DNA of 38,706 bases from positions 1-38,706 of IMG/VR virus record IMGVR_UViG_3300036790_000213; one strand, given 5' to 3'. Shown here in pieces: positions 1 through 38,277 of the stretch. Origin of the DNA: a virus. The translations under genes were made by a program, and so were the position numbers. Each line of letters starts with the position of its first letter. Positions within the stretch are counted from its first letter, which is position 1. The notes under the pieces are model-generated. The model ran no database searches. It was given only the letters and a program-made list of their open reading frames with translations, and was not told the origin of the DNA.

Positions 1-31
1 CTCCCTGCACTGTATCTATGCTGGCTTGACG

Positions 32-139
32 GGCGTTCGGCTCTCACTTGGCCGGCGTTCCGCGCTCACTTGGACGCCTGATAATGGGAGGGTATCCCTC
101 CTTGCGATGTCATCTCGCACCTGTTCCGCACTCACTCTG
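32..139. repeat. Iteron-like direct repeats
   Basis: GGCGTTCGGCTCTCACTTGG (32-51) and GGCGTTCCGCGCTCACTTGG (54-73) match at 18 of 20 positions with a 22-bp period. A diverged third copy, GTTCCGCACTCACT, lies at 123-136. The 22-bp period equals that of the iterons at 38313-38406, although the sequences are only loosely alike. They could be accessory initiator or regulator sites. Confidence 0.55.
87..101. promoter_or_regulatory. Perfect inverted repeat GGAGGG-TAT-CCCTCC
   Basis: Arms 87-92 and 96-101 are perfectly complementary around TAT. It resembles the GGGG/CCCC sites at 176-199 and 38570-38593 in having G-run and C-run arms about a TAT centre, and may bind the same protein. No function can be read directly. 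Confidence 0.45.
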
Positions 140-175
140 CCCCCAATTCGCTGGGATAACCACAATGATTACCGC

Positions 176-199
176 TTGTGGGGTATGCCCCCATTTTAT
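176..199 (+). promoter_or_regulatory. Operator-like dyad (GGGG-TATG-CCCC), left copy
   Basis: TTGTGGGGTATGCCCCCA followed by TTTTAT ends three bases before the -35 element of the left promoter. It matches 21 of 24 positions with the reverse complement of 38570-38593. Two of the three differences are in the central tetranucleotide, which reads TATG here and CATA there. Placement beside a promoter fits an activator or repressor site. Confidence 0.5.
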
Positions 200-201
200 C
201 G

Positions 202-229
202 TTGACACGCGAACGAGTATTGCTATACC
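202..229 (+). promoter_or_regulatory. Promoter of the left accessory operon
   Basis: TTGACA (202-207), a 16-nt spacer and TATACC (224-229) look like a sigma-70-type promoter pointing at the genes from 284 onward. The operator-like site at 176-199 lies just upstream. The transcript would carry a leader of roughly 45 nt containing the hairpin and ribosome site at 251-275. Confidence 0.6.
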
Positions 230-250
230 TTCATAGCTGTAATCGTTATT

Positions 251-275
251 TGGGCAATGCCCAGCCCCGAAAGGA
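251..275 (+). promoter_or_regulatory. Structured ribosome-binding leader, copy 1
   Basis: Hairpin TGGGC-AAT-GCCCA (251-263) runs into the block CCCAGCCCCGAAAGGA (260-275), which ends exactly 8 nt before the ATG at 284. The block and the spacing are identical at 1261-1276 and 1710-1725. It fixes the start of the ATPase gene at 284 rather than at the ATG at 257. Confidence 0.7.
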
Positions 276-283
276 CGTATCCC

Positions 284-838
284 ATGAACACGCTCTTTGC
301 ACCTTCCGCGTCATCCACTGACATCCTTACTGAGAAATACCGCCCAACGCGCATTGCCGACTTTGTTGGCCTTGATAAGCCACGCCGCATCGCCGCGAAG
401 ATGGCATCCACTCCACCTCGCACCGCTGGCCTGTTGTTCATCGGCGAGACGGGCATCGGTAAGACAACCCTCGCTCTCGCTATCGCCGAAGAGATGCCGG
501 CCGAGCTTCACCACATCGCATCGCAGGATTGCAACGTTGAGCGTATACGGCAGGTCGTGAGCAATTGCCATTACGTTCCGTGTGCCGGCTGCAAGCGTCA
601 CATTGTGTTGATCGATGAAGCGGACCAGATGAGCAACGCCGCGCAGCTCTACATGCTATCTGTATTGGACAGCACCGCACCGGCGCCCGACACACTTTTC
701 ATCCTCACGGCGAACAGCACCGACAAGCTACAGGATCGCCTCATCTCACGCTGCATCCCTGTACAGTTCTCATCTCACGCTGCATCCCTGTACAGTTCTC
801 ATCTCACGGTCAATCCACCGACACCGCGGCACTCCTAG
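284..838 (+). CDS. Clamp-loader-like AAA+ ATPase, C-terminus frameshifted
   Basis: A 184-residue product resembling the ATPase domain of clamp-loader small subunits (RFC/DnaX type). Visible motifs are an N-terminal TEKYRPTRIADFVG signature, Walker A GETGIGKTT (about 54-62), Walker B HIVLIDEADQ (106-115), a sensor-1 LTANSTDKL segment, and the SRC arginine-finger motif (155-157) typical of clamp loaders. A 29-bp tandem duplication at 741-798 shifts the frame after about residue 162 and gives an unrelated tail ending at 838. Collapsing one unit restores a 218-residue protein ending at 969. The family loads sliding clamps; here it might adapt the host replisome or act in partition. Whether the shortened product works is unknown. 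The start is set by the leader at 251-275. Confidence 0.8.
   Translation: MNTLFAPSASSTDILTEKYRPTRIADFVGLDKPRRIAAKMASTPPRTAGLLFIGETGIGKTTLALAIAEEMPAELHHIASQDCNVERIRQVVSNCHYVPCAGCKRHIVLIDEADQMSNAAQLYMLSVLDSTAPAPDTLFILTANSTDKLQDRLISRCIPVQFSSHAASLYSSHLTVNPPTPRHS
741..808 (+). repeat. 29-bp tandem duplication that frameshifts the AAA+ gene
   Basis: The unit beginning TCATCTCACGCTGCATCCCT occurs at 741-769 and again, identically, at 770-798. A partial third copy, TCATCTCACG, lies at 799-808. A 29-bp insertion is not a multiple of three and changes the reading frame. The 10-bp flanking repeat is the kind of sequence that promotes slipped-strand duplication or deletion, so the change may be reversible. 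An assembly or polymerase artefact is possible. Confidence 0.9.
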
Positions 839-969
839 AGCGCGTCTGGGATGCAGAAGCGCCGCAAACGGCCAAGCGTCCCAACTTCGCCCGCATCGTC
901 AAAGAGGCCTGCAACAACGTTCGCGCCTCACTCATGCAGCTCCAAACCGAACTTCTACTCGCAGACTGA
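802..969 (+). pseudogene. Displaced C-terminal segment of the AAA+ ATPase
   Basis: Read in the frame starting at TCT 802, this encodes SSHGQSTDTAALLERVWDAE and continues to LQTELLLAD followed by TGA at 967-969. It contains helix-forming, lid-like sequence and joins smoothly to RCIPVQF of the upstream gene if one 29-bp unit is removed. In the window as given it has no start codon or ribosome site of its own and is probably untranslated unless frameshifting or slippage occurs. Confidence 0.75.
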
Positions 970-1000
970 ATTAAAAACTAATTTATTAGGAGATAGCGCA

Positions 1001-1219
1001 ATGATGAACAATCAGACATTCAAATCGATAAAGATAGGTGACAAGGTACGCAAGGACGGAACCAAAACGATACGCACGGTACAAGCTGTGAACGATTACG
1101 GCATGTTTCGCACCGTGATCCTCGTGATGAAGGGTGGGCAAATAAACGCAATACAAAACACCTCTACGGCTACGACGATTCCCAGCTTCTATCACAACTG
1201 GCACATCGTCGAAGACTAG
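1001..1219 (+). CDS. Small hypothetical protein (72 aa)
   Basis: The start ATG at 1001 follows TTAGGAGATAGCGCA, a good ribosome site. The same frame is open further upstream to 851, but that part overlaps the displaced ATPase tail and lacks a ribosome site, so I reject it. The product begins MMNNQTFKSIKIGDKVRKDG and looks like a compact beta-rich (SH3/KOW-like) fold with a basic first half. No family recognised. It sits between the broken ATPase and the 34-residue membrane peptide in the left operon. Confidence 0.65.
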   Translation: MMNNQTFKSIKIGDKVRKDGTKTIRTVQAVNDYGMFRTVILVMKGGQINAIQNTSTATTIPSFYHNWHIVED

Positions 1220-1249
1220 ATTTCAAACCCCTGGTGCAATATCAACCCC

Positions 1250-1276
1250 TGGGCATCGCGCCCAGCCCCGAAAGGA
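1250..1276 (+). promoter_or_regulatory. Structured ribosome-binding leader, copy 2
   Basis: Stem TGGGC (1250-1254), loop ATCGC, stem GCCCA (1260-1264), extendable by one C-G pair, runs directly into CCCAGCCCCGAAAGGA (1261-1276). The block ends 8 nt before the ATG at 1285, as in copies 1 and 3. Its presence is the main evidence that the very short frame at 1285 is a real gene. Confidence 0.7.
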
Positions 1277-1284
1277 ACCACACC

Positions 1285-1389
1285 ATGAATCTCTTCCTCG
1301 CAATCATCTTCGCTCCGTCTATCCTCGCGGCTGTATCCATGATCGGCCTGTACGTTCGCCCGCTCCTCACAGACAAAACCAATCTCTAA
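1285..1389 (+). CDS. 34-residue single-pass membrane peptide
   Basis: The frame ATG 1285 to TAA 1389 begins MNLFLAIIFAPSILAAVSMI and continues GLYVRPLLTDKTNL. Roughly residues 3-24 form one strongly hydrophobic helix, followed by a short polar tail. It carries the same leader as the ATPase and the diguanylate cyclase, which argues that it is translated. Candidate roles are a small membrane regulator or a holin-like peptide; the sequence does not decide. No homolog recognised. Confidence 0.6.
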   Translation: MNLFLAIIFAPSILAAVSMIGLYVRPLLTDKTNL

Positions 1390-1424
1390 TCGACGTTTGC
1401 CCTATCAAAGGAAAGAGGAATTTC

Positions 1425-1688
1425 ATGATTGACCTTACTTCGCACCAACTCGATGGCCTCATCTACGCCCTGGAAATAGCTGCGGACGATCAGGAAAACT
1501 ATTTTGCTACTGTCAACCCGATAATCGATTACACATCCGAAGATCTGAGAACAAAAGCAACATCTTTCAGAAACATTGCGGAGTCGGTGCAGGCCCTAAG
1601 CCAACCTGCTCTCCGCATGCGATTTGAAGAGCTGGCCGACACCGCAGATATGCTAGCGACTTCTTCCGAAGTGGCCGAAGCAATCTAA
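1425..1688 (+). CDS. Small acidic helical protein (87 aa)
   Basis: The start at 1425 is supported by AAAGGAAAGAGG about 8 nt upstream. The product begins MIDLTSHQLDGLIYALEIAA, is rich in Asp, Glu and Ala, and appears entirely alpha-helical with a C-terminal ELADTADMLATSSEVAEAI helix. No family recognised. It is followed within 15 nt by the hairpin leader of the diguanylate cyclase gene, so it belongs to the same transcript. Confidence 0.7.
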   Translation: MIDLTSHQLDGLIYALEIAADDQENYFATVNPIIDYTSEDLRTKATSFRNIAESVQALSQPALRMRFEELADTADMLATSSEVAEAI

Positions 1689-1700
1689 CCGCACCACCCT

Positions 1701-1725
1701 TGGGTTTTACCCAGCCCCGAAAGGA
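1701..1725 (+). promoter_or_regulatory. Structured ribosome-binding leader, copy 3
   Basis: Hairpin TGGGT-TTT-ACCCA (1701-1713) followed by CCCAGCCCCGAAAGGA (1710-1725), 8 nt from the ATG at 1734. Relative to copies 1 and 2 the pair next to the loop is T-A instead of C-G, a compensatory change that keeps the stem paired. This supports a conserved RNA structure and not just a copied sequence. Confidence 0.7.
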
Positions 1726-1733
1726 CGTACAGC

Positions 1734-2366
1734 ATGTTTCTAACTCTTCCCGCCGCACCACCCCAACCCACCACCTTGCAGGACGCGCACCAACTCATCG
1801 CCACGATGCGCGCCGAGCTCGAGCAGCTCCAAGCCCTCGCGCGTCTCGATCCACTCACCGGCATCGCCAACCGCCGCGCCTTCGACGAACGGCTCGCCCA
1901 GGCCTTCGCGCACGCACGCCGCACGCGCACCACGCTGGCCGTGGCCGTCATCGATCTGGACAACTTCAAACGCCGCAACGATACCTACGGCCACGCCGCC
2001 GGCGATCGCTGCCTCAGTCTCCTCGCCGCGCAGCTCGCGGCCCACTCGCGTGCCGGCGACGTCGTCGCGCGGATCGGCGGCGAAGAGTTCGCCGTCATCA
2101 TGCCAGGCACCGGCCAGGTCGACGGCGCGGAGCTCTGCCGGCGCATCGCCTTCACCCTCCGCCAGGGATGCGCCGCTGGCGGTCCTCTCACCTTCTCCTG
2201 CGGCGTGGCGGATCTGGACGCCACCATGCTGCATCCCTCCACCATCCTCGATCGCGCCGACCGCGCCATGTACCATGCCAAGCAGTCCGGCAAAGATCGC
2301 GTGTGCATCCACCAAACCACCTTCAACCGCGCCGCAGCGTTCTTCGGCAGACTAGGGATTCGCTAA
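1734..2366 (+). CDS. Standalone GGDEF diguanylate cyclase
   Basis: A 210-residue protein predicted to make cyclic di-GMP from two GTP. After a short helical N-terminus (about 15-35) comes a complete GGDEF domain: DPLTGIANRRAFDERL (39-54), the metal/nucleotide segment VIDLDNFKRRNDTYGHAAGD (72-91), GGEEF at 115-119, and C-terminal DRADRAMYHAKQSGKDRV. An inhibitory-site motif RxxD (RAGD, 106-109) lies exactly five residues before GGEEF, so product inhibition is expected. There is no sensor domain or membrane segment, so it should be cytosolic. The hairpin leader at 1701-1725 controls its translation, and its stop overlaps the next gene (TAATG). Such enzymes are common in bacteria but unexpected among phage or partition genes; it may be a captured host gene. 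Confidence 0.93.
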   Translation: MFLTLPAAPPQPTTLQDAHQLIATMRAELEQLQALARLDPLTGIANRRAFDERLAQAFAHARRTRTTLAVAVIDLDNFKRRNDTYGHAAGDRCLSLLAAQLAAHSRAGDVVARIGGEEFAVIMPGTGQVDGAELCRRIAFTLRQGCAAGGPLTFSCGVADLDATMLHPSTILDRADRAMYHAKQSGKDRVCIHQTTFNRAAAFFGRLGIR

Positions 2367-2818
2367 TGGCCCTCTTCAGAATGACAGTCACGGCCACCGC
2401 TTCCACCACGTACATCGCCGAAGTCGAGGCACCGGACGAAGAAACCGCCGAGGCCATGGCAGCCTCGCGCGAGATCTTCGGTAAAAATTCCTCCGAGGAC
2501 TTTCAAGTCGACGCAAAAGATTGCGCGTTCGACTTTGAGACTGAGCAGCTCACAGACGAATGCCCAGACTGCGGAGAATCGCACCTGATTATGCACGACG
2601 ATCTGGCTGTGTGCTATTGCCAAGCGTTTGGCTTCAATCCTTATGCGGGTACTCCCGAAAATCCTAACGGGCGCGCTCCCCTTCATCCTCATCTCATCAT
2701 CGATGGTGTTTGCACACCTGAGCCCTGGTGGTATGAAGATCAAGACTATTGCGCCGCCTGCGGCGCTAAGATCGAAGCCGAAGAGAAAGCCGGGGAGGCC
2801 TTCCGCAATGCCCAATGA
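2366..2818 (+). CDS. Zinc-ribbon-like hypothetical protein (150 aa)
   Basis: The ATG at 2366 overlaps the stop of the diguanylate cyclase gene (TAATG), indicating translational coupling. The frame stays open upstream to 1700, but that part is only the alternative frame of the cyclase gene. The N-terminal 45 residues (MALFRMTVTATASTTYIAEV and onward) suggest a beta strand followed by an acidic helix. Two Cys pairs, CPDCG and CAACG, lie on either side of a middle segment with CYC and look like zinc-binding knuckles. No named family recognised. Probably cytosolic. Confidence 0.7.
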   Translation: MALFRMTVTATASTTYIAEVEAPDEETAEAMAASREIFGKNSSEDFQVDAKDCAFDFETEQLTDECPDCGESHLIMHDDLAVCYCQAFGFNPYAGTPENPNGRAPLHPHLIIDGVCTPEPWWYEDQDYCAACGAKIEAEEKAGEAFRNAQ

Positions 2819-2990
2819 CGAGCTAACCAAAGTGGAGTATCTGGGCGATGGCCTGTACGCTGAATGCACGGGCGACATGATCCGTCTCTTCGCCTCGAAC
2901 GGTGTCACCACCACCAACGAGGTCTATCTTGATCCAGCTGTGCTGCAGGCCTTCCTCAACTACGTCAAAACGATCCGGGAAAGAAGTTGA
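2808..2990 (+). CDS. Small hypothetical protein (60 aa)
   Basis: The ATG at 2808 follows GGGGAGG (2792-2798) and overlaps the end of the preceding gene by 11 nt. The product begins MPNDELTKVEYLGDGLYAEC and ends LNYVKTIRERS. The segment LGDGLYAECTGDMIRLFASNG looks like a small beta sheet, followed by a helix beginning at LDPAVLQAFL. Short proteins of this shape are frequent in phage accessory operons. Function unknown. Confidence 0.7.
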   Translation: MPNDELTKVEYLGDGLYAECTGDMIRLFASNGVTTTNEVYLDPAVLQAFLNYVKTIRERS

Positions 2991-3151
2991 AGTTGACTAC
3001 ACCGCCTAAACCCGCGCCGCAAAACTACTCACCCGTTGGCCCTCGCGTCATGCTGGGCGACAAGGCGATCTGCACGGCCGTCAGTAACACGATGGCCAAG
3101 CGGATCGCCGCCGCGCTCAACCATCACACACCCGATCGCCGCGGCATTTAG
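2987..3151 (+). CDS. Small phage-type protein (54 aa, TTG start)
   Basis: The frame starts at TTG 2987 (an in-frame TTG also occurs at 2993) and overlaps the preceding stop by 3 nt; GGGA at 2977-2980 could be its ribosome site. The product is about 54 residues and contains VMLGDKAICTAVSNTMAKRI followed by a short helix and DRRGI at the end. The pattern 'K-A-I-C-T-A-V-S-N-T-M-A-K-R-I-A-A-A-L-N' is typical of short orphan phage proteins of unknown function. The stop at 3149-3151 overlaps the end of the convergent minus-strand gene by 4 bp, so the two opposing operons abut here with no visible terminator. Confidence 0.6.
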   Translation: MKLTTPPKPAPQNYSPVGPRVMLGDKAICTAVSNTMAKRIAAALNHHTPDRRGI

Positions 3152-3525
3152 ATTTGATCGCTGCGCCTATTCCAATTCTCATAAAATTTCTTCACCACCT
3201 CAGCGGATTCGTCGTAGACGGCCATTGCGTTGCCATGCTCGTCACATCCAAGGTGGTAGCTCACCGATTCACCGATGGTCATATCTGCCGCACAGATTCC
3301 GCTTTTTCCCTTTTGCCGCAAGTCGGTCAAGACATACCAATCAGCCCCACGATTCAGATAGGTTGTGCTCGGTCCCACTGGAACTCCATCTCTCACCCGG
3401 ATTCTCTTGGTTGAGTCTAGTGGCATTCCCGCCGAAAACGTTACTCTATAGGCCGTCTTCCCCAGCCCCGCTATGTACCGCGCTCGGCGCAGAGCCTTGC
3501 GCATTTGTTTGGTCGGCTCCCTCAT
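3148..3525 (-). CDS. Hypothetical protein (125 aa), end of early operon
   Basis: The start is supported by GGAGGAGCAAA upstream. The product has a basic N-terminus (MREPTKQMRKALRRARY), a central beta-rich segment and an acidic C-terminal helix with SAEVVKKFYENWN. No recognised domain. It is the last gene of the leftward early operon and ends 4 bp into the convergent plus-strand operon. Confidence 0.7.
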   Translation of the reverse strand: MREPTKQMRKALRRARYIAGLGKTAYRVTFSAGMPLDSTKRIRVRDGVPVGPSTTYLNRGADWYVLTDLRQKGKSGICAADMTIGESVSYHLGCDEHGNAMAVYDESAEVVKKFYENWNRRSDQI

Positions 3526-5795: not shown

Positions 5796-6031
5796 TTCGC
5801 CTCCAACGCCAAGCGGCGTTCTTCCTTTTCGTCTTCCGTCAGCTCTAATTCGTCGATCGCGCACTGCGGGCAATAGTCATTGCGCTTCGTCCTGAGCCAT
5901 CCTGCAGCTTTCGCGCGGCGGCGGATCTCCGCAACGGTAAGCATGCTGATGTAATCCCCATCCTCAGGGAAAAACACGTCACCCACACCGTGCTCGTTAT
6001 CGCAATAGATCTTCTTCGCAGTGCGAATCAC
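5792..6031 (-). CDS. Zinc-binding hypothetical protein (79 aa, GTG start)
   Basis: GTG 6031 follows GGAGGTGACGAA. The segment KKIYCDNEHGVGDVFFPEDG gives a first Cys/His site and NDYCPQCAIDELEL a CxxC pair, together a plausible zinc ribbon. Between them is a helix (TVAEIRRRAKAAGW) resembling a DNA-binding helix. The C-terminus is acidic and basic in alternation. It may be a small regulator, but no family is recognised. Confidence 0.6.
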   Translation of the reverse strand: MIRTAKKIYCDNEHGVGDVFFPEDGDYISMLTVAEIRRRAKAAGWLRTKRNDYCPQCAIDELELTEDEKEERRLALEAK

Positions 6032-7428
6032 TTCGTCACCTCCGTCACCACCACCTCATCCCCACTCGCCTCGCCATCCTCCATCACCACGCCCACGCTG
6101 CCGCTGGCGTCCACGCGCTCGATCCACACCTGGAAGCCATGCTTGTCGGCCGCCTCCGTCACCAGCGCCATGCTGTCGGCATCGAGCAGGCTTCCATCCT
6201 TGATCAGCAGCGCGCGCAGCTTGGGGTTGCTGGCCATGCCCAGCGCCATACTCACGCGGATCTGCTCGGCGTTGCTCGCCTGCCCGAACGGCAGTCCCTG
6301 GTAGAGCACTTCCTCGTTGCCGATGCTCAATCCCTCGATCGGCATCTTCGCGCGCGCCAGGGCGTCCTCCAGATCCTTCGTGCGGCCCTTCACGATCGCG
6401 TCCAGCCGCTCCCATTCCGCATTGGAGTCCGAAACCTCATCCTCCGCCGTGTGATAACCAAAGGCCGCGCGGATTTTGTTATTGGTGTCCACGGCCGTCG
6501 AGATCTCCGCCGTCAGATCCGCAGTGTTCACCTCCTCCTCAATCCAGACGTTGGCGGCACTCGCCAAGGCCTCCGCGCCCTGGTTGACGCTCTCTACAGC
6601 CTCGGCCTCCAGTTCGTCGGCTCTACGGCGAAGATCAATGGCCTCTTTGCGTTGATTTGCAGCTTGCTGTGCGTATGACTGTGCGCGCTCCTCATGGCCC
6701 ACTTTCCTTGCTCTCTGCTGGGCGGCGATGGTGTTGTGGTTGGCCGCGCCCTCCAGCTTCTTTGTGATCTCCGTCACGTCGACGAGCTTCTCCGGCAATC
6801 CATCCTCCGGCTTCGCCATCGCCGAAAGCCGGGCCTTGGCGCTGTCGAAGATCCTTCCCGCATCCCGCCGTTCGTCATAGGCCGTTTTAATCTCGGCCTG
6901 CACCGCCTCAAGATCGATGTCGAACGTCACCAGCTTCCGCAGCGTCTCCAGCTGCTTCTTATCCTCCATCCGTATAAACTCCAGCGGATCGAAGCTGAAC
7001 TTACCCACCACGCCATTCAGCACATCCTGGGGCTGCCGGTAGATCTCCCGGTTTTTCCCCTCCACCACCAGCTTCGTGAGAAAGGTATTTCCCTTGGCGC
7101 TCTTCTCCGGGTCGACGCGGGTAAAGTAGCGCGTCACGATGAAATCGCCGATGTCGGCCTTGATCATTCCCACGCGCTGGCCGGCGCGGATCGGCTGGCT
7201 GGGCACGTCAGAGGTGCCCAGCAGCAGCCACGCGATCGCGCGCAGCACGCTGGTCTTGCCCTGGCCGTTCTTCCCGGTGATCTGCACCACGCTGCCCTTG
7301 GGCTTGATGTGCGCGACGCGCACCTTCATGATGTTCTCGACCAGCAGCTCCACGATGTGCGAGCCCTCCGGAACCTTCTCGATCTTCGTCTCGGCCGCTT
7401 CGTTCTTCGCACTCTTCTTATTTGGCAT
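6028..7428 (-). CDS. RecF/SbcC-like AAA ATPase with coiled coil
   Basis: A 466-residue protein of the SMC/RecF/SbcC ATPase group. Start at 7428 (MPNKKSAKNE) after AGGAGAAAGACG. Walker A is GKNGQGKTS (about 52-60). A charged coiled-coil segment occupies the middle (about 180-320). A signature-like FGQASNAEQIRVSMALGMA and a Walker-B-like RALLIKDGSLLDADS follow near the C-terminus. The family couples ATP binding to DNA-end or recombination-intermediate handling. No separate nuclease partner (SbcD-like) is seen nearby, although HNH and RusA proteins are encoded elsewhere. Roles could be phage DNA recombination, replication-fork repair or nuclease inhibition. It is the main gene of the early operon. 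Confidence 0.8.
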   Translation of the reverse strand: MPNKKSAKNEAAETKIEKVPEGSHIVELLVENIMKVRVAHIKPKGSVVQITGKNGQGKTSVLRAIAWLLLGTSDVPSQPIRAGQRVGMIKADIGDFIVTRYFTRVDPEKSAKGNTFLTKLVVEGKNREIYRQPQDVLNGVVGKFSFDPLEFIRMEDKKQLETLRKLVTFDIDLEAVQAEIKTAYDERRDAGRIFDSAKARLSAMAKPEDGLPEKLVDVTEITKKLEGAANHNTIAAQQRARKVGHEERAQSYAQQAANQRKEAIDLRRRADELEAEAVESVNQGAEALASAANVWIEEEVNTADLTAEISTAVDTNNKIRAAFGYHTAEDEVSDSNAEWERLDAIVKGRTKDLEDALARAKMPIEGLSIGNEEVLYQGLPFGQASNAEQIRVSMALGMASNPKLRALLIKDGSLLDADSMALVTEAADKHGFQVWIERVDASGSVGVVMEDGEASGDEVVVTEVTK

Positions 7429-7828
7429 CGTCTTTCTCCTCGGGTTTGGCAGATGGGCTGGGCTTCTTTTGGGAATAGGCGGGTGTCCAGGTGATAGTCC
7501 CGTCTTTGACTTCATTTTCTTGCGAAAATGCTGGCTCATTATTTCCGCTTAGGCCGGTAGGTACAGCCGGCAACGGCTCATCCTCATCGCAGATGCGAAC
7601 CCACGTCGGATGCTCCGGATGCCGCTCGATCAGCCGCCGCGACTCCAGATAAGCCATCGCATCGCTGAGATCCGCGTCGGCCGTCGCGAGATCATGCCAG
7701 TCGAGCAGCGGCTCTTTGTTTTTCGCATAACTAGGAAGCGTTTCGCTGTCGATCCAGCTACTCGCCAGCTCATACGCGAAGCTCAATTCAATCTTCCGGA
7801 GTTCCTCTGCGCTGTACGCTTTGCTCAT
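7418..7828 (-). CDS. Hypothetical protein (136 aa), first gene of early operon
   Basis: I choose ATG 7828 (MSKAYSAEELRKIELSFAYE). There is no Shine-Dalgarno sequence, but a -10 element ends only 6 nt upstream, so the mRNA is probably leaderless. The N-terminal 80 residues form an acidic helical domain (ELASSWIDSETLPSYAK, DADLSDAMAYLESRRLIERH) that resembles a winged-helix fold; the C-terminal 50 residues are Pro/Ser/Lys-rich and disordered. It overlaps the ATPase gene by 11 bp. It may be a regulator of its own operon, but this is speculative. Confidence 0.65.
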   Translation of the reverse strand: MSKAYSAEELRKIELSFAYELASSWIDSETLPSYAKNKEPLLDWHDLATADADLSDAMAYLESRRLIERHPEHPTWVRICDEDEPLPAVPTGLSGNNEPAFSQENEVKDGTITWTPAYSQKKPSPSAKPEEKDDAK

Positions 7829-36266: not shown

Positions 36267-36938
36267 ATGTCTCTACAAATCACCATCGCAAATCAAAAAG
36301 GCGGCTGCGGCAAGACGACGACAGCCATGAACCTGGCCGGCGTCTTCACCAAAATTGGCTACAGCGTGCTGGTCATCGACGCCGATCCGCAGAGGAGTGC
36401 CTTGCGCTGGTCTCGCGCCCAGGGAGAAGGCAACCTTCCTTTCCGCGTCGCAGATCCCGCGTCCGCAGAGGCCTCTCTGCAAGACAACTACGAGCTGGTG
36501 TTTGTGGACTGTCCTCCTGGCATGGAAGGAGATGCCCGCGCGGGAAGACAAGTGCGTAACTTCATCGCTCGATCGGATGGCATCCTCGTGCCGCTGATGC
36601 CATCCTCGCTGGACTATTCGGCAGCCACGTCGTTTGTGAACTTTCTGCGCGAGACCAAAGCTCCGGAGACGAAGACGGCCATCGTCCTCAACGCCGTGCA
36701 GCACAACCGGCTGGGTGCCCAGGCCGCCGCCGCCGCCGCCGCGCTCTTCGCCTCGATCCCCGGCGCCGTCGTTCTGCCCACTACGATCGGCCGCCGCACG
36801 CTTATCACCGAAGTCTCGGGTTCCGGCAAGACCATTCTGGACTATGCCGGTCCTCGTCACCTTGCAACCGCTGAATACACCAATCTAGCAAAGGACATCC
36901 TCCAATGGCTCACCAACGCGCCTCCATCGTCGCTGTAG
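36267..36938 (+). CDS. parA: ParA partition ATPase
   Basis: A 223-residue Walker-type partition ATPase of the small (type Ib-like) kind, with no N-terminal DNA-binding domain. The deviant Walker A is KGGCGKTTT (11-19, with the signature Lys11), switch I lies in VIDADPQRSA (37-46), and Walker B is ELVFVDCPPG (76-85). ATP-bound ParA dimers coat the nucleoid and move plasmid copies apart under control of a centromere-binding partner. The next gene (RHH) overlaps it by 34 bp and fits that partner, and the palindrome just upstream fits the centromere or operator. The absence of a ribosome site suggests a leaderless start. Confidence 0.95.
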   Translation: MSLQITIANQKGGCGKTTTAMNLAGVFTKIGYSVLVIDADPQRSALRWSRAQGEGNLPFRVADPASAEASLQDNYELVFVDCPPGMEGDARAGRQVRNFIARSDGILVPLMPSSLDYSAATSFVNFLRETKAPETKTAIVLNAVQHNRLGAQAAAAAAALFASIPGAVVLPTTIGRRTLITEVSGSGKTILDYAGPRHLATAEYTNLAKDILQWLTNAPPSSL

Positions 36939-37186
36939 ACCTCCACGACCTCAAAACCACCTTACCCACCCCGCGCCCTGTAGAAATCGTTCCTGCGGCC
37001 CCTGAGCCTCAGGAATCGCGTTCTCTGGCGATCCCCGAGCAGGATTATCTGATTCCGTTCAGTTGTCGGTTGCCGATGAGCCTCCACCAGAAGCTCGACG
37101 AGCTGAAGCGCGAGCGAGGCCTGGACAAGACCGAAGTCGTCAAAGCCGCCCTCGCTGCGCATTTGAAGAAACTGGGGAAGGGGTAG
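36905..37186 (+). CDS. RHH centromere-binding partner of ParA (ParB-like)
   Basis: A 93-residue protein with an extended N-terminal half (Pro-rich, likely flexible, a usual place for ParA-stimulating residues) and a C-terminal ribbon-helix-helix domain: strand IPFSCRLPMS, helix LHQKLDELKRERG, helix DKTEVVKAALAAHLKKL. It is not a ParB/HTH protein; it fits the small RHH partners (ParG/omega-like in role) of type Ib systems. Its start (ribosome site AAGGA at 36891-36895) lies inside parA, so the two proteins are coupled. It probably binds the ATACAG boxes at 36204-36256 and represses the divergent promoters there. Confidence 0.8.
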   Translation: MAHQRASIVAVDLHDLKTTLPTPRPVEIVPAAPEPQESRSLAIPEQDYLIPFSCRLPMSLHQKLDELKRERGLDKTEVVKAALAAHLKKLGKG

Positions 37187-37236: not shown

Positions 37237-38277
37237 ATGTGTTGTAGCCGACATTATGGAGTAATATCTCGACGAGTTACCAGAGGTGAGCGTTTGCGTA
37301 GAGATCCAAGCAAAAGTAGCAACTATGGCAGCGAGGCGAAGATCGCACGAGCAAAACTTTTTGAGGATATGTTGACCCAGCGGAAGCATCGTAATGCTGG
37401 GGAGGCTCGTGAAATCGTGCAGATGTCGACTATGTTGGTTCTCTCTGGACTTCCGTACAAACCGACTGATCAGACGGAGATTGTGAGGACCGCAAGGACG
37501 GCGCGCGGCTTTGAACGCACCACATTTTATGCACTAGGGAAGGATGCGAACGGCGACCGCGTGCCGATGGCATTTGGTTCTGATCGCACCTTTCTTCATT
37601 GGTGCATTGACCTGGCCATCAAGCGAAATGATCCGTTTGTGCCGCTTCCTATGGCACGATCTTTTTTTGACGATCTTAGTCTTTCGGTGGGCGGAAAAAG
37701 TTATATTCTCCTGCGCGAGTCACTTAATCGGCTTTCTGGACTAGCGGTTGTGGTGGAGGGCGGTACGCGTCGAAATATAACGACGATCATCGCTCATGCG
37801 CAGCTTCCAAAGGGCGCGAAATGCTCTGGGATCGACGATGGGCCTCCAGGTGTACGCTTTGGGGCCGATTTTTTTGCAGAGTTCAGTAAGCGTCATGTGC
37901 CATTCTTGTGGCCGTTACTTCGGGCTCTCCATAAAAAGCCCCAGATGCAGGACTTCGTTCTGTACCTGCATCGTCGGTGTAGTGATGCGAGATCGACTTT
38001 GGTGATTCCCTGGCCTATGTTGCGTGAGCAGCTTTGGCAAGCCGACAGCAATACGCGCCGGATGAGGGCACGAATGGCTACGGCGATCGAGATGTTCAAG
38101 GTGGCATGGCCTGAATTGAACGCTATAGCGCGATCGGAAGGACTAGAAATAGGGCCTCCCCTCAAGGGTCTCCATTTTATCCCCTTCGTCACGGCGGAAA
38201 CGAAGGGCGTCGAAGACACTGATCTGGGTGTATTGCGTAAAAGAAAAAGAAATTGGGGTTTTTCTTCAGGCGAATAG
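37237..38277 (+). CDS. repA: RepA-type plasmid replication initiator
   Basis: A 346-residue protein matching the 'plasmid encoded RepA' (RPA, PF04796-type) family in outline: MLVLSGLPYKPTDQTEIVRT and the following ARTARGFERTTFYALGK, then a winged-helix-like core with FLHWCIDLAIKRNDPFVPLP, DDLSLSVGGKSYILLRESLN and RLSGLAVVVEGG, then FVLYLHRRC and VIPWPMLREQLWQ. It binds iterons and opens the origin for the host replisome. Start ATG 37237 has no strong ribosome site; an in-frame TTG at 37294 follows AGAGGTGAGCG and could be the true start. The four iterons lie immediately after the gene. Codon use looks less GC-biased than the virion genes. Confidence 0.85.
   Translation: MCCSRHYGVISRRVTRGERLRRDPSKSSNYGSEAKIARAKLFEDMLTQRKHRNAGEAREIVQMSTMLVLSGLPYKPTDQTEIVRTARTARGFERTTFYALGKDANGDRVPMAFGSDRTFLHWCIDLAIKRNDPFVPLPMARSFFDDLSLSVGGKSYILLRESLNRLSGLAVVVEGGTRRNITTIIAHAQLPKGAKCSGIDDGPPGVRFGADFFAEFSKRHVPFLWPLLRALHKKPQMQDFVLYLHRRCSDARSTLVIPWPMLREQLWQADSNTRRMRARMATAIEMFKVAWPELNAIARSEGLEIGPPLKGLHFIPFVTAETKGVEDTDLGVLRKRKRNWGFSSGE

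Follow-up and report, generated by a model that had tools for sequence, protein, structure and literature searches.

Why does a putative phage-plasmid carry a complete diguanylate cyclase gene, and is the gene kept there to act on the host or was it acquired by chance? The window, i.e., the whole stretch of DNA analysed here (38,706 nucleotides), is a 38.7 kb IMG/VR virus record, a tailed-phage genome with TerL, a portal, and a major head protein. The features on which the argument rests are as follows.

250..286, + strand: first copy of the leader, that of the clamp-loader-like ATPase
284..838, + strand: clamp-loader-like AAA+ ATPase, frame broken (Pfam AAA 8.5e-15, DNA_pol3_delta2; PHROG clamp loader)
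1251..1287, + strand: second copy of the leader, that of the membrane peptide
1285..1389, + strand: membrane peptide of 34 aa, preceded by a leader
1425..1688, + strand: 87-aa protein of unknown function, directly 5' of the GGDEF leader (no Pfam match)
1700..1736, + strand: GGDEF leader, consisting of the inverted repeat TGGGT-TTT-ACCCA, AGCCCC, GAAAGGA (Shine-Dalgarno), then ATG
1734..2366, + strand: predicted stand-alone GGDEF diguanylate cyclase, 210 aa, with an N-terminal helix (about residues 15-36) and a GGDEF domain (37-193) (Pfam PF00990, AlphaFold2, Foldseek)
2366..2818, + strand: small zinc-ribbon-like protein, its start overlapping the GGDEF stop (TAATG)
36267..36938, + strand: ParA-type partition ATPase (Pfam, PHROG_164)
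36905..37186, + strand: ribbon-helix-helix partner of ParA (PF01402 RHH_1, E 4.8e-4)
37237..38277, + strand: plasmid replication initiator of the RepA type (plasmid homologues)
38313..38422, + strand: 22-bp iteron-like tandem direct repeats, GTACGCTTCATCGTACTTCCGG, 3' of the Rep gene

The initial annotation had placed the cyclase gene in a phage-plasmid, and this context stands: the head, portal, and terminase genes lie beside those for ParA, the ribbon-helix-helix protein, and Rep, and beside the iterons. With phage structural genes and plasmid replication and partition genes on one molecule, the classification is well supported. The tyrosine integrase family PF00589 had no match in the window or in nine relatives, while the positive controls were detected. 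A terminal repeat of 13-600 bases was not found in the record, which is linear, so that a circular form of the element is putative. The plasmid homologues of Rep are only RepA and hypothetical proteins of Granulicella tundricola (Acidobacteriota) plasmids, with up to 37% identity, and the gene order ParA, small protein, RepA also occurs on the G. tundricola plasmid pACIX905. A clamp-loader search, used as a host hint only, found one Acidobacteria MAG locus with 54% identity and ArdC alongside. The host is most likely a member of the soil Acidobacteriota. On the Acidobacteria MAG contig L084 (7078-8683), ArdC adjoins the clamp loader, with a resolvase and an integrase nearby; this locus may represent, in integrated form, a relative of the accessory interval described below. 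In a search for host-integrated copies, run without a positive control, the portal protein of the related element G006 matched nothing in 396 Acidobacteriota genomes.

The reading frame at 1734-2366 (+) proved to be complete, exactly as had been claimed: it starts with ATG and has 210 codons for protein. Its product matches PF00990 over residues 37-189 (Pfam, E 9.2e-42; 143 bits, the cut-off being 23.8), and positions 2-161 of the 161 in the profile are covered. As read from the sequence, the motifs comprise D74-L-D76 with F78/K79, N82, G86-H87, D91, the signature G115-G116-E117-E118-F119, and A175-D176-R-A-M-Y180-H-A-K183; among these, D74 is the predicted metal Asp, and N82 and D91 are the predicted guanine-binding residues. 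The I-site, R106-A-G-D109, is followed by VVARI and then GGEEF, with the RxxD motif five residues ahead of the latter. The catalytic, metal, and I-site motifs previously described as intact are all present, and the catalytic and I-site residues, including N82 and D91, are invariant in all four orthologues. The sensor domain is missing, as the initial annotation had also noted, and because Pfam gave no domain other than GGDEF, the protein is truly stand-alone.

The AlphaFold2 monomer model (mean pLDDT 84) has a helix at residues 15-36 followed by a GGDEF fold. Its top Foldseek match is the coiled coil and GGDEF structure of DgcB from Caulobacter crescentus (6ttr; TM 0.80/0.85, 32% identity), and others are WspR and PleD; the PDB matches of the protein are ordinary active cyclases (DgcR, WspR, DgcB, and PleD), together with GCN4-WspR and 6d9m. 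DgcB likewise has a helix or coiled coil before one I-site GGDEF domain, although its upstream part is longer and it is a host chromosomal enzyme rather than part of a mobile element. The matches to DgcB and GCN4-WspR suggest that the window protein may dimerise via its N-terminal helix. By profile, motifs, and predicted fold, the protein appears to be a canonical full-length diguanylate cyclase, and it would be expected to be enzymatically active. Two other assignments were rejected: a YuA-type short GGDEF protein (SGDEF or AGDEF, truncated C-terminus), because the window protein has GGEEF and is not shortened, and mCpol/Panoptes or another defence polymerase, because the canonical GGEEF is retained and a PADLOC match is absent (from a 2023 library that may lack Panoptes).

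The gene does not stand by itself. The initial annotation had reported a membrane peptide and an ATPase under the same type of leader, and exact copies of CCCAGCCCCGAAAGGA do precede the ATPase, the membrane peptide, and the GGDEF gene (three copies in the window, at 260, 1261, and 1710; with up to 3 mismatches allowed, 0.49 would be expected). In the more general form TGGGC-N3-GCCCAGCMCCGAAAGGA, 24 copies are found in eight related elements, a few bases ahead of the start codons of left-end genes; 21 of them lie outside the window (L024, L027, L030, L069, L072/L073, L074, and L077-L079). The genes behind the leader encode the clamp-loader-like ATPase, short membrane peptides, the GGDEF protein, and also, in four of the relatives, anti-restriction proteins of the ArdC type (PF08401 and PF18818; the L069 locus at 1175-2059 and the intervals of G014, G017, and G022). 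The arms of the leader pair in 96% of the cells compared, and one pair, that of the window's GGDEF leader, is changed on both sides; because only this pair shows a double change, an RNA structure is not proven. We rejected a stable RNA, given the weak covariation and a folding stability no better than that of shuffled sequences, and the leader matched no RNA family in Rfam. It may act as a binding site, in DNA or in RNA, or as a Shine-Dalgarno cassette. A sigma-70 promoter scan of window positions 1-3200 gave nothing above chance. The closest known analogue of the leader is the SAS/ESAS of cluster K mycobacteriophages, short conserved repeats at start codons that mark a subset of phage genes, some with an inverted repeat (PMC3203893). 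The sequence, host, and gene set differ, and the likeness concerns the leader only.

The neighbouring ATPase is indeed an ATPase behind a leader, of the clamp-loader-like AAA+ kind, but its reading frame is broken in the record by a perfect 29-bp tandem duplication (window 740-797) and is open again to about 969. The corresponding gene is broken in other ways in G006 and G002, where an HNH-like ORF after a truncated gene and an internal deletion are seen, respectively. A membrane peptide similar to that of the window, also ending in DKTNL, is present in G006. On the 3' side, a zinc-ribbon-like homologue follows the GGDEF gene in 4/4 carriers, and the homologue in G013 has a weak Zn-ribbon match.

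Is the GGDEF gene a regular component of such elements? The comparison covers eight elements of 38-41 kb, namely W (the window), G001, G002, G006, G013, G014, G017, and G022, which were gathered by protein and leader searches of IMG/VR and have the left-end interval as their common feature. In these records, which may be fragments, the gene is present in four (W, G001, G002, and G013) and absent from G006, G014, G017, and G022. The orthologues share 61-64% identity with the window protein, and each of the four genes sits behind its own leader copy in the same interval, 5' of the small Zn-ribbon-like gene; the site is thus shared with three of the window's seven relatives. The structural genes (terminases) of G001, G002, and G013 are only about 30% identical to those of the window, whereas G006, its closest relative by structural genes (TerL 74%), lacks the GGDEF gene and has membrane peptides in that interval. 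The interval of the four non-carriers is filled otherwise, with ArdC in three of them, and the interval of the carrier G013 holds both ArdC and GGDEF. The GGDEF gene is present or absent independently of the structural genes and therefore moves or is lost separately, yet it keeps one slot; because four of the eight elements lack it, it is dispensable. In other words, as judged from these genomes, the cassette is conserved yet not obligatory. In G002, transposase-like ORFs lie between the clamp loader and the GGDEF gene (L003 1050-1948), and the GGDEF gene downstream is intact. The GGDEF gene of a 58-kb element (L004/G003) was rejected as a member of the group, having an N-terminal sensor-like part and falling outside the clade. 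An SMC/RecF-like AAA protein (window 6028-7539; PHROG 1499, unknown function) is found in all eight elements, with 48-59% identity.

The substitution pattern indicates that the gene is under purifying selection. Between G001 and G002, 20 synonymous and 6 non-synonymous changes give a dN/dS of 0.09 (binomial p 5e-8), and wider ortholog pairs have values of 0.23-0.46, although dS is approximate where the pairs are distant. In the tree, all four phage proteins group in a single clade (support 98/98). None of the 30 best cellular matches exceeds 45% identity to the window protein, and they are C-terminal in larger proteins; because the 396 Acidobacteriota genomes searched were an even sample, a closer cellular relative may exist. 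Matches in the phage collection are mostly at most 46% identical, and many are in unannotated fragments, possibly of host DNA. These data fit an origin from a cellular enzyme that was stripped of its sensor and has long been kept in these elements, and a recent neutral capture does not fit them.

We favour, with moderate confidence, the reading that this sensor-free, product-inhibited cyclase of an optional cassette is made early and raises the c-di-GMP of its Acidobacteriota host. The soluble enzyme would dimerise through its short N-terminal helix and make c-di-GMP from GTP; it would be active once made, with the RxxD site letting the product hold it in check. Because an input domain is absent, its level would depend on how strongly it is expressed from behind the shared leader and on this product inhibition, and its timing would depend on the expression pattern. 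The cyclase would be one member of an exchangeable left-end accessory set, each gene behind a hairpin/Shine-Dalgarno leader and including ArdC in the relatives, and the kinds of gene in this set suggest early expression of those with a leader. In this way, the element may raise host c-di-GMP soon after entry or during plasmid persistence, and the rise may shift the host to a sessile state and/or alter its surface or the lysis-lysogeny outcome of the phage, presumably to the benefit of the element. That the gene is used to steer the host is probable because related viruses keep it at one place under selection.

Several observations bear on this reading. In its favour, the host phylum abounds in c-di-GMP enzymes, and a rise in c-di-GMP may act by routes seen in other phages: in the plasmid-like phage VP882, lysogeny shifts with the c-di-GMP pool (PMC11315295); the receptor of phage N4 is c-di-GMP-dependent (PMC8669472); and lysogens of the GGDEF-bearing Bordetella phage LK3 overproduce biofilm, of which the GGDEF gene is a possible cause (PMC8471281). 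Against it, the gene is dispensable, and neither a PilZ domain nor, among the Rfam matches, a known riboswitch was found as a c-di-GMP receptor in the element. The effect of one added cyclase may also be buffered in a host that has about 19 GGDEF proteins of its own. In VP882, high c-di-GMP lowered lysogeny on surfaces (PMC11315295), which runs opposite to a simple "settle and stay" story.

The view that a host GGDEF gene was acquired by chance and has not yet been lost could draw on its presence in only four of eight elements, its somewhat high third-position GC (0.82), and the many GGDEF genes of the Acidobacteriota, in which relatives occur in 366 of 396 genomes and one genome has 19 matches. 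We regard it as very improbable and largely refuted already: the genes share a site, a leader, and a single clade, they have long diverged from cellular genes, and their frames are intact under purifying selection. The initial annotation had taken absence from all close relatives as the mark of a chance insertion, and three relatives carry the gene. Its proposal of a conserved accessory role is thus borne out as to site and selection, but the role is an optional one, given that G006 and three other elements lack the gene. The effects on biofilm, superinfection, and signalling that it had also put forward are hypothetical. It is also quite improbable that the protein is a catalytically idle receptor or scaffold that mainly binds either host c-di-GMP at its I-site or a partner protein. 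Stand-alone I-site proteins can serve as receptors, and the forms in YuA and Bordetella FP1 are truncated, their motif reading SGDEF or AGDEF; degenerate receptors, however, usually lose their catalytic residues, every one of which is retained in the four orthologues. Production of cGAMP or another mixed dinucleotide, as by Hypr GGDEF enzymes, seems hardly credible, since all orthologues retain N82 and D91, the two residues with which the canonical enzyme binds guanine, and the serine that marks Hypr enzymes is absent, even though some GGDEF enzymes show altered base choice and 6d9m is among the PDB matches.

A role in counter-defence is unlikely but deserves to be set out. If made early, the cyclase might fill the cell with so much cyclic dinucleotide that nucleotide-based immune signalling meets competition or finds its receptors occupied, or it might otherwise shield incoming DNA alongside anti-restriction genes. 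The GGDEF gene shares its leader and interval with ArdC genes, the unrelated phage YuA also has a small GGDEF gene adjoining an anti-restriction gene, and nucleotide decoys or sponges decide phage-host contests in Panoptes (PMC12657218). On the other hand, ArdC and GGDEF occur together in only one of the eight elements (G013), the GGDEF protein has no defence-related match, and no defence system is documented as blocked by c-di-GMP in the literature covered, from which most subscription papers were missing. A broader idea, which we hold as tentative and rather doubtful, is that Acidobacteriota phage-plasmids use a dedicated leader-controlled cyclase, encoded with anti-restriction genes in an early accessory interval, to control the host or counter its defences by setting lysogeny, surface receptor display, or nucleotide immunity, with the pairing of c-di-GMP and anti-restriction recurring in YuA. 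Such a neighbourhood in unrelated phages amounts to two cases and could be a coincidence.

The initial annotation had held that a conserved accessory role would be new, but phage-borne cyclases, small stand-alone forms among them, have been recorded before, in YuA, Bordetella LK3/FP1 (PMC8471281), and SP-15. Pseudomonas YuA (Yuavirus; gp44) and Bordetella FP1/LK3 (Vojvodinavirus) are temperate phages with a small stand-alone GGDEF protein; the YuA and FP1 proteins differ in their length of 156 aa, their SGDEF or AGDEF, and the missing C-terminal part, and these phages are integrating siphoviruses, unlike the window phage-plasmid. SP15_150 of Bacillus phage SP-15 is also a stand-alone canonical GGEEF domain, but it has a hydrophobic N-terminal stretch and belongs to a large phage, amid glycosyltransferase genes. 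A Mu-like marine virus also encodes a diguanylate cyclase (PMC7785012). The c-di-GMP enzymes of SXT/R391 ICEs and genomic islands are likewise on mobile elements, which are conjugative or integrated and not phages; an island-borne diguanylate cyclase changes the biofilm and motility of recipients (PMC10672970).

Phage diguanylate cyclases have so far been mostly annotation entries. The gene described here is canonical and of full length. It belongs to a single clade, keeps to one site, and is under purifying selection, for which the evidence is better than in the phage cyclase annotations consulted. Acidobacteriota phage-plasmids show a compact, leader-tagged accessory interval in which anti-restriction and c-di-GMP synthesis alternate, and carriers and non-carriers of similar genome plan occur naturally, so that comparing them could reveal what a phage cyclase does to host c-di-GMP, to the surface state, and to lysogeny. 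In YuA, the small GGDEF protein gp44 directly adjoins the anti-restriction gene gp45 (L118 2932-3890).
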